Assembly (NCBI RefSeq): GCF_001279005.1
Contig: NZ_LGCN01000243.1
Span: 1-29,981, forward strand
Source: Streptomyces caelestis
GTDB lineage: Bacteria > Actinomycetota > Actinomycetes > Streptomycetales > Streptomycetaceae
DNA: 29,981 bases
Direction of reading: 5' to 3'
Under the pieces are notes generated by a model. It did not search any database and had not been told where the DNA came from. It saw only the letters and a list, made by a program, of their open reading frames with translations. Position 1 is the stretch's first letter. Each line of letters begins with the position of its first letter. Made by a program: the position numbers and the translations under genes. Below, piece after piece: positions 4,616 to 29,981 of this stretch.

Positions 4616-4669
4616 CGGCGGCTCGCCCACAGGGCTGCCGGTGGTCATCACACGCTCCTTCCAGGCCGG

Positions 4670-4717
4670 TTGACAAAACGGAACGGCGCTCCGGATACTA
4701 AGTGGAGCGCCGTTCCG
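4670..4717 (+). promoter_or_regulatory. Promoter with double TetR-like operator for the hydrolase
   Basis: TTGACA (4670-4675), 18 bases, GATACT (4694-4699) is the best sigma-70-like promoter in the window. CGGAACGGCGCTCC (4679-4692) and GGAGCGCCGTTCCG (4704-4717) are perfect 14-base inverted copies, and each copy is itself nearly palindromic (CGGAACG/CGCTCCG), as TetR operators often are. One copy lies in the spacer and the other over the expected transcription start, a classic repression layout. No TetR gene adjoins. Confidence 0.65.
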
Positions 4718-4815
4718 CTTCAGGTTGGTTGAAGCGGGATGTCTCTGACCAGCTGGTCCGTTGTCGGTCGCAGGAGACCGGCGGGCAGCAGGTGCCACCG
4801 AAAGGGAAGCCGCTC

Positions 4816-5778
4816 GTGAGTACATCCACCGCCATCAGCGCCGACGCCTGGGGCACGCCCGTCCCGGTCCTGTCCTTCAGTCCCGTCGTCCTCCCCGTGC
4901 CGGGACGTCCCGTGGACCTCCAGGTACGCGTCTCCGCACCCGCGACCGGAACCGATCTCGCCGTCATCCTCCTCTCCCACGGTCAAGGCCCCTCGAACAA
5001 CCTCTCCTCGCTCAACGGCTACGCGCCGCTCGTCAACTCGTGGGCCGCTCAAGGATTCGTGGTCATCCAGCCCACCCACCTCACCTCCCGGACACTGACT
5101 CACCTGGTCGCCGACGCGCCCGGGGCGCCCTTCTTCTGGCGCTCGCGCTCCGAGGACATGTCCCACATCCTCGACCGACTCGACATGATCGAAAAAGCCG
5201 TACCGCTGCTCTCCGGACGGATCGACCACGCCAAAGTCGCCGTCGCCGGGCACTCTTTCGGCGGCTTCACCGCCGGCCTCCTGCTCGGCGCCCAGGTCAC
5301 CGACCCCGACGAAGGAGGGGAGGTGAGCCTTCTCGAACCCCGGATCAAGGCGGGTGTGCTGCTCGCCGCGCCCGGCAGGGGCGACGTCCTCAACGGACCG
5401 ATGGGCGACGCGCTGCCGGTCTTCCGGACCATCGACTTCTCCACCATGACCACACCCGCGCTGGTCGTCGCCGGCGAGAAGGACGACTCCCGGCACTTCA
5501 CGGACATGGGCCCGGACTGGCACGCCGACCCCTACACCCTCGCCCCCGGACCCAAAACCCTGCTCACCCTGTTCGGCGCGGAGCACGGACTCGGCGGGAT
5601 CGCCGGCTATGACGCCGCCGAGACCACCGACGAGAACCCCGAACGAGTCGCGGCCCTCGCCCGGCTCACCGCGGCCTACCTCCGCACCGGGCTTCACCCG
5701 GGTGACCCCGCATGGCAGGCCGCACGCGAGGCACTGACGGCCGGTCCCGATCCGATAGGACGAGTCGAATCCAAGTAA
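4816..5778 (+). CDS. Alpha/beta hydrolase
   Basis: A 320-residue protein without a clear signal peptide. An oxyanion-side strand VILLSHGQGPSNNLSS is followed by the nucleophile elbow VAVAGHSFGGFTAG (Ser in GHSFGG), an acid in VVAGEKDDS and a catalytic His in GAEHGLGG. The spacing fits chlorophyllase/dienelactone-hydrolase-like serine hydrolases; the ester or lactone substrate is unknown. GTG at 4816 is chosen because AAAGGGAAG lies 7-15 bases upstream. The frame is open back to GTG at 4702, but that part overlaps the operator and the presumed transcription start. It appears monocistronic, behind a TetR-like double operator and ahead of strong hairpins. Confidence 0.85.
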   Translation: MSTSTAISADAWGTPVPVLSFSPVVLPVPGRPVDLQVRVSAPATGTDLAVILLSHGQGPSNNLSSLNGYAPLVNSWAAQGFVVIQPTHLTSRTLTHLVADAPGAPFFWRSRSEDMSHILDRLDMIEKAVPLLSGRIDHAKVAVAGHSFGGFTAGLLLGAQVTDPDEGGEVSLLEPRIKAGVLLAAPGRGDVLNGPMGDALPVFRTIDFSTMTTPALVVAGEKDDSRHFTDMGPDWHADPYTLAPGPKTLLTLFGAEHGLGGIAGYDAAETTDENPERVAALARLTAAYLRTGLHPGDPAWQAAREALTAGPDPIGRVESK

Positions 5779-27163: not shown

Positions 27164-28381
27164 CAGGGTCTTTGAGAAGTGATCTTGTGTCCGGGTTCGC
27201 CAGGTCAGTCCGAGGGCGGTGGGGGGCCGCTGGTGGTCACGGGCGGTGCGGCGGAGGGCGGCGGCGATGTTGGTGTGGGCGTCCTGGCGGTGGATGCCGA
27301 TGGCGAGGTTGCGCAGGCCGGCCATGACGTGGGGCAGGTTGCGGGTGCGGATCTTGGAAGCGTCCTCGTGAAAGGTGCGGTCCCGGACGTGGTGGAGCTG
27401 GTTCTCGATGCGCCAGTGGCCGCGGATCCAGGCCGTGAGTTCGCTGCCACTGGCCGCGCCGGGCGGCAGGCTCGTGACCAGGTGGATCCGCTCGATCGTC
27501 AGCTTGCCCGTGCCCAGATCGCGTCTTCAGCGCACGGCTTGGAGGGGCTGACGGGCGTGCGGGTAGTCGATGTGGGCGAAGGCGGCGGTCTTCAGACGGC
27601 GGATCTCGTCGCGGTGGTGGGCCCGGGTGCGCTCGATGTGGTCCAGGCGGATGTCGCGCCAGGGAAGGCGGTGGAGGCGCTCAGGGAGTCCGGGATGGTT
27701 CCGCTTGACGACGGCCAGGTAGTGAGCCCCGCGTTCGTGCAGGTAGGCGGCGTGGTCGTGCTGGGTGTGCAGGGCGTCGGCGGTGATGACGGCGCCGGTC
27801 AGGTCGATGTCATTCAGGAGCGGGGCGAAGGCCGGGATCTCGTTGCTCTTGCCGTCGATCTGCCGCTGGGCGAGGACCTGGCCGTTGTGGGTCATGGCGG
27901 CGATCAGGGCCGTGGCCGTCCGGCCGGCGGTGCGGGAGCCGCGGAGTGTCTTGCTGTCGACGGCGATGACCTTCCGTCCCGGTGCCGGGGCCTTGCGTTC
28001 CTGGAGGAAGCGTCCGATGGCGCGGTCAAGGGCGTCACCGTCGGCGGCGGCCAGGACGAGGCGGACGGTCGTGGCATGGGGCGGGCGGAACAGTCCCGTC
28101 AGCGGGTCGGGCCGGAACCCGAGCAGGGCCAGGACGCGTTGCGGCGCGTCGGCGACCCACTCACCGATCGCCGTGATCGAGGCGGCGCCGGCCAGAACGG
28201 CGGCAGCCGCAGCGGTGAGCAGGGCCGTCCACGGATACCGGATGCCGCGACGGGCCCGTGGATCAGGCACCGTGGCCAGATACTTCCGCAGGTCAGCGGC
28301 TGCCTCCAGCGGGGCTGGGCCGGAGGCGCCCTCCAATTGCCGAAGGCATGAGGGCATGCAGGAAGATGGGTGCGCAGGCAT
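27164..28381 (-). pseudogene. ISAs1-family transposase with in-frame stop
   Basis: The first part reads LRKYLATVPDPRARRGIRYP, WTALLTAAAAAVLAGAASIT, AIGEWVADAP, GRKVIAVDSKTLRGSRTAGR and HTQHDHAAYLHERGAHYLAV with VKRNHPGL, the DDE_Tnp_ISAs1 layout. TGA at 27527-27529 follows QAVR. The same frame continues RRDLGTGKLTIERIHLVTSL, GHWRIENQLHHVRDRTFHED and NLPHVMAGLRNLAIGIHRQD to the element end at DHFSKTL. The stop probably replaces a Trp codon. There is no stop inside the right end; the reading passes into flanking DNA. Confidence 0.85.
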
Positions 28382-28654: not shown

Positions 28655-29125
28655 TTACGCCGTCGTGGCTGCTGTCTCGGTGGCTTCGACTGCGGACTTG
28701 AAGTCGGGGTGGACCCCGATTTGATCAAGCCACACGCTCATCGAGTTGTAGCAATTGAACCTTTCGATCTTTCCGTCACGGAGGTACCAGAGGTCCGCCG
28801 CCGGCACGTCGATCCGGTTCCCGGTCGGTGGGATCTCGCCGACCGGAGTCGGAAACCCTCCGAGATGCGTGCCCTGGATTCGCAACTCGACGGCGACGAC
28901 ATCACCGAACGCATGTACCTCGAGCAGTTCACGGTGTACATCGGGGAACGAGCGGGCGAGGCCCGCGACCACCTGAGGAATCTGCTTTTCGCGGAAACTC
29001 TGCGAGGTCGACATGTCGTTGAACGACCCGTCCTCGGTGAACAAGGCCAGGAAACCGTCACCGTCGAGAACGTTCCCTTCCGCGAGCCGGTAAGCCTCGC
29101 GAATGGTCTTTTCGTTACTTTCCAT
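28655..29125 (-). CDS. SnoaL-like ester cyclase/NTF2-fold protein
   Basis: A 156-residue protein: MESNEKTIREAYRLAEGNVL, DGDGFLALFTEDGSFNDMST, IPQVVAGLARSFPDVHRELL, EVHAFGDVVAVELRIQGTHL, PTGNRIDVPAADLWYLRDGK and IERFNCYNSMSVWLDQIG. The run from a catalytic-pocket Asp/His set to PTGxxIDxPxADLWxxRDGKI is characteristic of SnoaL-like proteins. The exact substrate is unknown. ATG at 29125 has AAAGGAG seven to 13 bases upstream. It is divergent from an Rrf2 regulator across three tandem operator copies, so Rrf2-type control is very likely. Confidence 0.88.
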   Translation of the reverse strand: MESNEKTIREAYRLAEGNVLDGDGFLALFTEDGSFNDMSTSQSFREKQIPQVVAGLARSFPDVHRELLEVHAFGDVVAVELRIQGTHLGGFPTPVGEIPPTGNRIDVPAADLWYLRDGKIERFNCYNSMSVWLDQIGVHPDFKSAVEATETAATTA

Positions 29126-29193
29126 TCCTGTTCTCCTTTGAATTCGCAACACGCTCACGGTCCGCGCTTGTCTTTGATTGACCCTTCCCGGCT

Positions 29194-29273
29194 GTCGTAA
29201 CTGTAATCGTTACAGCGGATTGTCGCAACCTTCACCGTTACGACTGCGCTGTCGTAACATGGAGCGTTGCGAC
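29194..29273. promoter_or_regulatory. Three tandem palindromic operators between SnoaL-like and Rrf2 genes
   Basis: GTCGTAAC-N7-GTTACAGC (29194-29216), GTCGCAAC-N7-GTTACGAC (29222-29244) and GTCGTAAC-N7-GTTGCGAC (29251-29273) are three copies of one 23-base palindrome at steps of 28 and 29 bases. The last copy ends 13 bases before the Rrf2 start. The consensus is GTCGYAAC-N7-GTTRCGAC. Confidence 0.85.
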
Positions 29274-29286
29274 CCGAGGAGGGATC

Positions 29287-29730
29287 ATGAGCGCCAACAG
29301 CAGGCTGACCACTGCCGCCCATGCGCTGGCCTGGATCGGTCTCTACCAGCGCCAGGGTCACGAGGTCGCCACCTCCGAGCAGATCGCGACCAGCGCGAAC
29401 ACCAACCCCGTGGTGATCAGGCGGCTGCTCGGCGAGCTGCGCAGGGCCGGGCTCGTGGAGTCCCGGCGGGGCGCGGGCGCGGGCTGGTCACTGGCGCGCG
29501 AGCTGGGGTCGATCACCCTGCTCGACGTGTACGAGGCAGTGGAACCCGGCCCGCTGTTCGCGATGCACCGCACCACCCCGGACCAGGGATGCGTGGTGGG
29601 TCACGGCATCCAGCCGGCAATGCGGGGCATCTACCAGGACATCGAGGAGACCCTGAGACACGAACTGGCCCGCGTCACGCTCGAGAAGGTGCTCAGGGAC
29701 GTACTCGCGGCACCTCGCCAGCCTCTCTGA
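29287..29730 (+). CDS. Rrf2-family transcriptional regulator
   Basis: A 147-residue protein. The Rrf2 winged helix reads NSRLTTAAHALAWIGLYQRQ, then EVATSEQIATSANTNPVVIR and RLLGELRRAGLVESRRGAGA, GWSLARELGSITLLDVYEAV. Only one Cys, in DQGCVVGHGIQPAMRG, lies in the region where Fe-S members (IscR, NsrR) carry three, so cluster binding is doubtful and a YwnA-like or small-molecule sensor is more likely. GAGGAGG precedes the ATG at 29287. It is divergent from the SnoaL-like gene with three operator copies, the presumed binding sites. Confidence 0.92.
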   Translation: MSANSRLTTAAHALAWIGLYQRQGHEVATSEQIATSANTNPVVIRRLLGELRRAGLVESRRGAGAGWSLARELGSITLLDVYEAVEPGPLFAMHRTTPDQGCVVGHGIQPAMRGIYQDIEETLRHELARVTLEKVLRDVLAAPRQPL

Positions 29731-29903
29731 TCAGCTGGGCGACCCCTGCGAACCGTAGGGTTCGGCGTGGGTTCTGCCCACCGGGGCGGAGTGACGTGAG
29801 CGTGGAGATGGAATCCCGCGCCGAACGCGTTGGATCCGCCGCCGGAACAGACGGCGGGTGCAGGCCGAGCTTGAGGTTGATTCCCGGGAGTGGACACCGG
29901 GTT
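29731..29903. other. Gap with IS3-type right end
   Basis: CGAACC and GGTTCG form a small stem just after the Rrf2 stop and may end its transcript. The segment GTGGACACCGGG near 29890 resembles the right terminus of IS3-type elements and belongs with the following OrfB tail. Confidence 0.4.
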
Positions 29904-29981
29904 TCATGCGGCGAGTGGCAGAGTACGTGACGTGATCAGTTGTTGTTCGAACTCGACCGGTGTGAGGTGGCCGAGGGCGGA
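29904..29981 (-). pseudogene. IS3-type OrfB (integrase-core transposase), C-terminal tail at window edge
   Basis: The minus-strand frame entering from the right edge reads SALGHLTPVEFEQQLITSRT, LPLAA and stops at 29904. SxLGxLTPxEFE is the standard end of IS3-group OrfB proteins. Only 25 codons are visible, so it may be intact beyond the window. Confidence 0.75.

Follow-up and report, generated by a model that had tools for sequence, protein, structure and literature searches.

We present here an analysis of a 29,981-nucleotide stretch of Streptomyces caelestis DNA (hereafter the window), in which the gene for an Rrf2-family regulator and a divergent gene for a SnoaL-like protein are separated by an array of three palindromic operators. 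Sequence comparison and analogy with characterized relatives make it reasonably probable that this unit is a mobile electrophile- or quinone-sensing cassette with an exchangeable enzyme. Its features are as follows.

28655..29125, minus strand: SnoaL-like (NTF2 fold) effector gene, 156 aa (Pfam SnoaL_2, 6.2e-14; SnoaL, 2.7e-12)
29194..29216, no strand: operator 1 (op1), GTCGTAAC-N7-GTTACAGC with 2 mismatches, conserved in orthologues
29200..29205, minus strand: candidate -10 (TACAGT) of the effector promoter, inside op1, 17 bases from the -35, proposed from conservation
29222..29244, no strand: operator 2 (op2), exact match, conserved in orthologues
29223..29228, minus strand: candidate -35 (TTGCGA) of the effector promoter, inside op2, proposed from conservation
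29251..29273, no strand: operator 3 (op3), exact match, conserved in orthologues
29255..29260, plus strand: candidate -10 (TAACAT) of the rrf2 promoter, inside op3, TAACAT being present in 72 of the 80 loci that have op3
29287..29730, plus strand: Rrf2-family regulator gene, 147 aa, YwnA/SifR type (Pfam Rrf2, 3.8e-34), sole cysteine Cys102

A scan of the window at up to 3 mismatches found 3 sites in total, all in the gap between the two genes (chance level, mean of 0.56 per window and at least 3 sites in 3 of 100 shuffles). The array spans 29194-29273 within an intergenic region of 29126-29286. The first-pass annotation had reported three clean copies with 28-29 base steps; there are indeed three sites, at steps of 28 and 29, but op1 is imperfect, with both mismatches in its right half-site, and many orthologues have a perfect op1. 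Two palindromes in the window reach at least 7/8 pairs, and op1 has 6/8, as does an unrelated stretch at 29149. In simulation, 20,000 sequences of 161 bases matching the region's neighbour composition included 36 with two palindromes of this geometry at 7/8 pairs or better and 0 with three. A scan of the organism's own 8.6-Mb genome that allowed 2 mismatches found no exact copies besides op2 and op3.

The ortholog set comprised the best 80 of 237 genome loci encoding a relative of the regulator (89-99% identity), and sites were sought in the 250 bases before each rrf2 gene. Three sites (at most 4 mismatches) are present in 78 of the 80 loci and two in the remaining pair (L099 and L116), with exact 28/29-base steps in 67. 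As a control, 1521 other 250-base stretches from these loci were scanned; they held 34 sites when 4 mismatches were allowed and none when the limit was 2. Across 199 genomes, the window's included, the exact motif occurs 10 times in 9 genomes, and each copy is followed at a distance of 14-78 bases by the start of a gene for an Rrf2 homologue. The conservation of the palindromes beside orthologous Rrf2 genes, which the first-pass annotation had named as one of two points on which its proposal would fall, is thus borne out both by the 78 loci and by all 10 exact copies. A class-wide draw of 394 genomes contained 20 with a homologue at an E value of 1e-45 or below, the window's genome included. 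Of the other 19 loci, 9 are full length at 80% identity or more; every one of the 9 carries three sites together with an SDR or SnoaL gene in divergent orientation, and 5 of them belong to two other families of the class. Seven loci at 74-76% identity have one site each, 3 with a co-directional SDR gene and 4 matching no reference effector. At L167 (56% identity), a single weak site is accompanied by a dehydrogenase gene in the same direction, and at L166 (62% identity) no site was found and an SDR-like gene lies downstream on the opposite strand. A regulator copy that has lost its front part (L164, 91% identity over residues 25-144 only) has no detectable operator and no recognized effector. 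The link between operator and regulator is very probable. A wider regulon was considered and rejected: no exact site lies away from an Rrf2 homologue in the 199 genomes, and the 4 two-mismatch sites outside the array in the organism's own genome are at control level (5 with the reversed pattern). Further targets may be reached through weaker sites.

Several positions in the array are more constant than the motif asks. Base 5 of op2 is C in 81 of 81 loci (the 80 plus the window), though the motif allows T; op1 spacer bases 11-12 are TA in 81/81, although they lie outside the half-sites; and op3, found in 80/81, has T at base 5 in all 80. On the effector strand, the pattern TTG-17-TANNNT occurs in 77/81 loci and TTG-18-TANNNT in 4/81. 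Read most simply, the effector promoter would have its -10 at op1 and its -35 at op2, and the rrf2 promoter would have its -10 at op3; most of each candidate hexamer coincides with half-sites that are conserved anyway. A consensus promoter scan of the region reported no sigma-70 promoter, and a search for a conserved -35 candidate for the rrf2 promoter found none. The sequence AGGAG precedes the effector ATG at 29125. Control of a single SnoaL gene, as first proposed, gives way here to a broader assignment: since the array appears to span both divergent promoters, the regulator gene is expected to come under its control along with SnoaL. Repression of both genes is likely.

The op1-op2 step is 28 in 76/80 loci and 29 in 4/80; the op2-op3 step is 29 in 70/80, 24 in 4, 30 in 3, and 57 in 1, with op3 undetected at up to 4 mismatches in 2. 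Linkers between op1 and op2 measure 5-6 bases in 81/81 loci and those between op2 and op3 measure 6 bases in 71/80. The step of 57 (28+29), at L069, encloses a degenerate stretch, perhaps a decayed extra operator unit. Cooperative control, which the first-pass annotation had read from the three copies, was set aside as an unneeded reason for the 28/29 steps, because the op1-op2 step matches the 17-base promoter spacer and the op2-op3 step varies, being 24, 30, or 57 in 8/80 loci. The change from 29 to 24 amounts to five bases, about half a helical turn, which disfavours strict face-to-face contact.

The regulator belongs to the Rrf2 superfamily (PF02082, 118.1 bits, above the cut-off of 30) and scores 59.6 bits with TIGR00738, under that model's stricter cut-off of 73.3. 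Its closest PDB relative is YwnA (1xd7), both by sequence (2.8e-20) and by fold. The single cysteine noticed in the sensor region at first reading proved real and conserved: Cys102 occurs in the window's regulator and in that of every one of the 80 loci (at L061 its number is 112 owing to a run of N in the gene), is the only cysteine in 77 of the 81 regulators, and is accompanied by one extra cysteine in 3 more. It is invariant in an alignment of 26 chosen proteins reaching down to 42% identity (the structure alignments used 33 and 26 chosen sequences). In the predicted model (pLDDT 91), Cys102 stands directly before helix 105-128 and aligns with the YwnA cysteine, so the regulator has the feature of the monothiol subgroup, a single conserved Cys at the start of alpha5. 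The surrounding sequence is mostly HxxxPDQxCVVG or CVIG in the clade versus HxxPNPxC in SifR, and several distant relatives have PNxxCPVG. Fe-S sensing of the IscR/NsrR/RirA kind, which uses three or more cluster cysteines, was rejected on the count of one conserved cysteine.

As described in passages of PMC9218516, quinones react with C102 of Streptococcus pneumoniae SifR and release it from DNA, and the YwnA cysteine is equated with SifR C102. By analogy, the regulator here probably senses electrophiles or quinones through Cys102. The signal, given at first as an unknown small molecule, thereby acquires concrete candidates, quinones and electrophiles, from the SifR/YwnA precedent. We infer that a one-cysteine repressor of the YwnA/SifR type would bind each 23-bp palindrome as a dimer, so that op1 and op2 would cover the effector -10 and -35, op3 would cover the regulator's own -10, and both genes would be held off. 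A quinone or similar thiol-reactive electrophile would then modify Cys102, just before the dimerization helix, and the protein would leave the DNA, allowing the effector enzyme and fresh regulator to be made. The SnoaL protein would in turn act on the electrophile or its source.

With the same repressor and operators, Cys102 might instead report oxidants or disulfide stress, such as hypochlorite or thiosulfinates, in the manner of HypR. This is rather unlikely. HypR is a thiol-based Rrf2 sensor that shares the operator core (PMC9218516, in part), and the regulator matches the NCBIfam HypR model at 5.7e-09, a score well under the curated cut-off. Staphylococcus aureus HypR, however, has two redox cysteines, C33 and C99, in the account given in PMC9218516, whereas 77 of the 81 proteins here have Cys102 only; moreover, the effectors that were classified include no thiol reductase.

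The effector is assigned to the SnoaL-like proteins by SnoaL and SnoaL_2 domains above cut-off and by an NTF2-type fold in the predicted model, the best of five having a pLDDT of 87 and the other four 45-63. The top PDB folds for the best model, at about 20% identity, include AclR, SnoaL2, KstA15, IdmH, and ChaU; PhzA/B and limonene epoxide hydrolase folds also match, so the fold is catalytically diverse. SnoaL2, KstA15, and ChaU have quinone substrates, taken after reduction by an SDR, according to sections of PMC12281474. From this analogy, it is quite conceivable that the SnoaL protein acts on the inducer itself.

The gene divergent from rrf2 differs among the 80 loci: it encodes an SDR in 60 (57 of a first type and 3 of a second), SnoaL in 19, and L055 ends at a contig end. 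The SDR partners are classical SDRs by domain and by PDB relatives, and PDB searches with the two types returned generic SDRs. The Rrf2-SnoaL pair had been proposed as a compact cassette; compact it is, but SnoaL is the minority partner, and the conserved unit, given these counts, is the switch and not the pair. On the DNA tree of regulator genes, the SnoaL loci form one group that implies a single change, with support of 90-91 (below 95), and the three loci with the second SDR type fail to form a group; the protein tree (L036 left out) is poorly resolved, splits the SnoaL loci, and implies 4 changes. The intergenic consensus sequences of the SnoaL and SDR groups resemble each other between a point some 15 bases left of op1 and the start of rrf2 but differ further left, so the effector coding sequence and its leader were replaced and the promoter-operator block was kept. 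SnoaL thus apparently replaced an SDR once. Neighbour lists, made with a codon-composition filter that misses genes, were examined for 10 of 20 places with SnoaL homologues outside the clade and for 6 of 19 SnoaL-group loci. Outside the clade, TetR-type regulators (by Pfam) adjoin the homologues at L128 and L129, TetR look-alike genes lie near those at L130, L131, and L135, and zinc-type dehydrogenase genes lie near those at L132 and L134; these neighbours are consistent with recruitment from elsewhere. The lists of the six SnoaL-group loci, from which the filter dropped genes including SnoaL itself, contained no obvious SDR. It is suggestive that SDRs and a SnoaL-fold protein should alternate as effectors, but the SDRs here are classical, and those of the SnoaW type are called atypical in a passage of PMC12281474. 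More tentatively, the unit might be a mobile "socket", a regulatory block of sensor gene, two promoters, and three operators that accepts a classical SDR, a second SDR type, or a SnoaL-fold protein, with SnoaL as a cofactor-free quinone-detoxifying enzyme.

Sequence beyond the pair is seldom shared. In two flank comparisons, from which loci with less than 1000 bases of flank were left out (18 of 19 SnoaL loci kept; 56 and 55 of 57 first-type SDR loci), similarity extending over 300 bases or more outside the pair was seen in 16/153 and 9/153 locus pairs of the SnoaL group and in 3/1540 and 48/1485 of the first-type SDR group. Thirty plasmid records carry a regulator homologue (E value of 1e-20 or below); identity is 80-90% in 11 of these records and higher in 2. 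Three of these loci were opened: L146 has a SnoaL gene and the array, L147 has an SDR gene and the array, and L148 has neither, its copy showing no detectable operator and no annotated divergent gene in an incomplete gene table. The rarity of shared flanks and the plasmid copies together indicate that the cassette moves. At L146, on a Streptomyces linear plasmid, a gene for a ferric-reductase-like membrane protein (4624-5523) adjoins the cassette; ferric reductases are also under SifR control (PMC9218516, in part), a link that may or may not be chance. In the window, an ISAs1-family transposase frame lies left of the SnoaL gene at 27527-28381 (NCBIfam transpos_ISAs1, above cut-off) and matches the profile at 2-215 of 314, so it is perhaps shortened. 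The contig ends at 29901-29981 in a minus-strand reading frame, SALGHLTPVEFEQQL, which seems to resemble the terminal part of an IS3-type transposase, and two insertion sequences may thus flank the cassette.

A set of 23 distant loci (L015-L037; 42-77% identity) is organized differently. In 20, an effector gene on the same strand starts 509-562 bases after the rrf2 start; by best match among eight references, these effectors are 9 NIPSNAP, 4 SDR, 4 metallo-beta-lactamase fold, 2 MFS, and 1 zinc-type dehydrogenase. The range of effectors in this wider group, oxidoreductases included, speaks for the preferred reading. The other 3 loci match no reference effector; Pfam identifies an MFS gene at one of these, L034. 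At up to 4 mismatches, one site precedes rrf2 in 18 of the 23, L030 has one plus a weak match at -220, and L017, L034, L036, and L037 have none; at up to 2 mismatches, a site is present in 8. These low counts, like the missing sites at L148 and L164, count against the preferred reading. L036 is a paralogous Rrf2 gene in the organism's own genome (G000:C73:17441-17767), with 55% identity across residues 33-141; a NIPSNAP gene follows it downstream and, as noted, no operator site was detected.

A ligand-gated switch has also to be weighed, in which a small molecule, for example a polyketide, would be bound non-covalently and three cooperative sites would give a sharp response. Regular 28/29 steps in 67/80 loci and sites that nearly abut (linkers of 5-6 and 6 bases) fit this proposal, as does the occurrence of SnoaL-like proteins and SDRs in natural-product pathways (PMC12281474, in part). 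It is nevertheless quite improbable: the promoter spacer accounts for the op1-op2 step, the op2-op3 step departs from the rule in 8/80 loci, from 29 to 24 by about half a helical turn, the conserved cysteine occupies the quinone-sensing place of SifR, and the flanking genes are so seldom shared that no fixed pathway is in sight. That the palindromes serve another regulator or a recombinase, Rrf2 adjacency being incidental, is hardly credible, for although the ISAs1 frame, the plasmid copies, and the varied neighbours look mobile, the exact motif lies beside Rrf2 homologues only (199 genomes), a similar palindrome precedes rrf2 in 19 of 23 distant relatives with different effector genes, and the core equals the SifR/HypR operator.

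The preferred reading, a mobile sensing cassette with an exchangeable enzyme, would extend a regulator type characterized in a Firmicute to a widespread and mobile relative in Actinobacteria, with an exact operator. Passages of PMC9218516 on the SifR group mention only a few Actinobacteria. In our search, 1393 regulator homologues were found in Actinobacteria at an E value of 1e-20 or below. An Rrf2-SnoaL or Rrf2-SDR cassette or a three-site array was not found in the open-access literature, among the matches listed. Across the loci, a series of different effectors has been exchanged naturally beneath a single promoter block, and the cassette gives a candidate signal (quinones or electrophiles) and a candidate function to a SnoaL-like protein otherwise named by fold only. 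Because Streptomyces both produce and encounter numerous quinone antibiotics, biologists would have reason to study a dedicated sensor, which would also be of interest as a biosensor part.

Among known systems, SifR is likewise an Rrf2 protein with one conserved cysteine before helix alpha5 and N9-spaced half-sites, and its regulon includes an NAD(P)H quinone reductase, which we count as a likeness (PMC9218516, in part). It differs in controlling scattered genes with an operator upstream of each, whereas here a divergent pair shares three near-abutting operators, the motif arm is longer, and the effectors are SDR or SnoaL proteins. The SifR operator TGTAA-N9-TTACA, found by its likeness to that of HypR (PMC9218516, in part), compares with a core of CGYAA-N9-TTRCG here: the spacing and the GTAA/TTAC core are the same save for the Y/R wobble, and the outer base differs. 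HypR has this same operator core but two redox cysteines, where one conserved cysteine is found here. YwnA of Bacillus subtilis, the closest solved relative by sequence and fold, is encoded in the ywnAB operon and its expression is catechol induced, as stated in passages of PMC9218516; its partner gene thus lies in one operon and is not divergent. Finally, in the pairs SnoaL2/SnoaW, KstA15/KstA16, and ChaU/ChaX, as partly described in PMC12281474, a SnoaL-fold protein and an SDR act on one quinone substrate, and the effector model matches SnoaL2, KstA15, and ChaU; those pairs are enzymes of biosynthetic clusters, whereas the SnoaL protein here is about 20% identical to them and alternates with SDRs in different loci.
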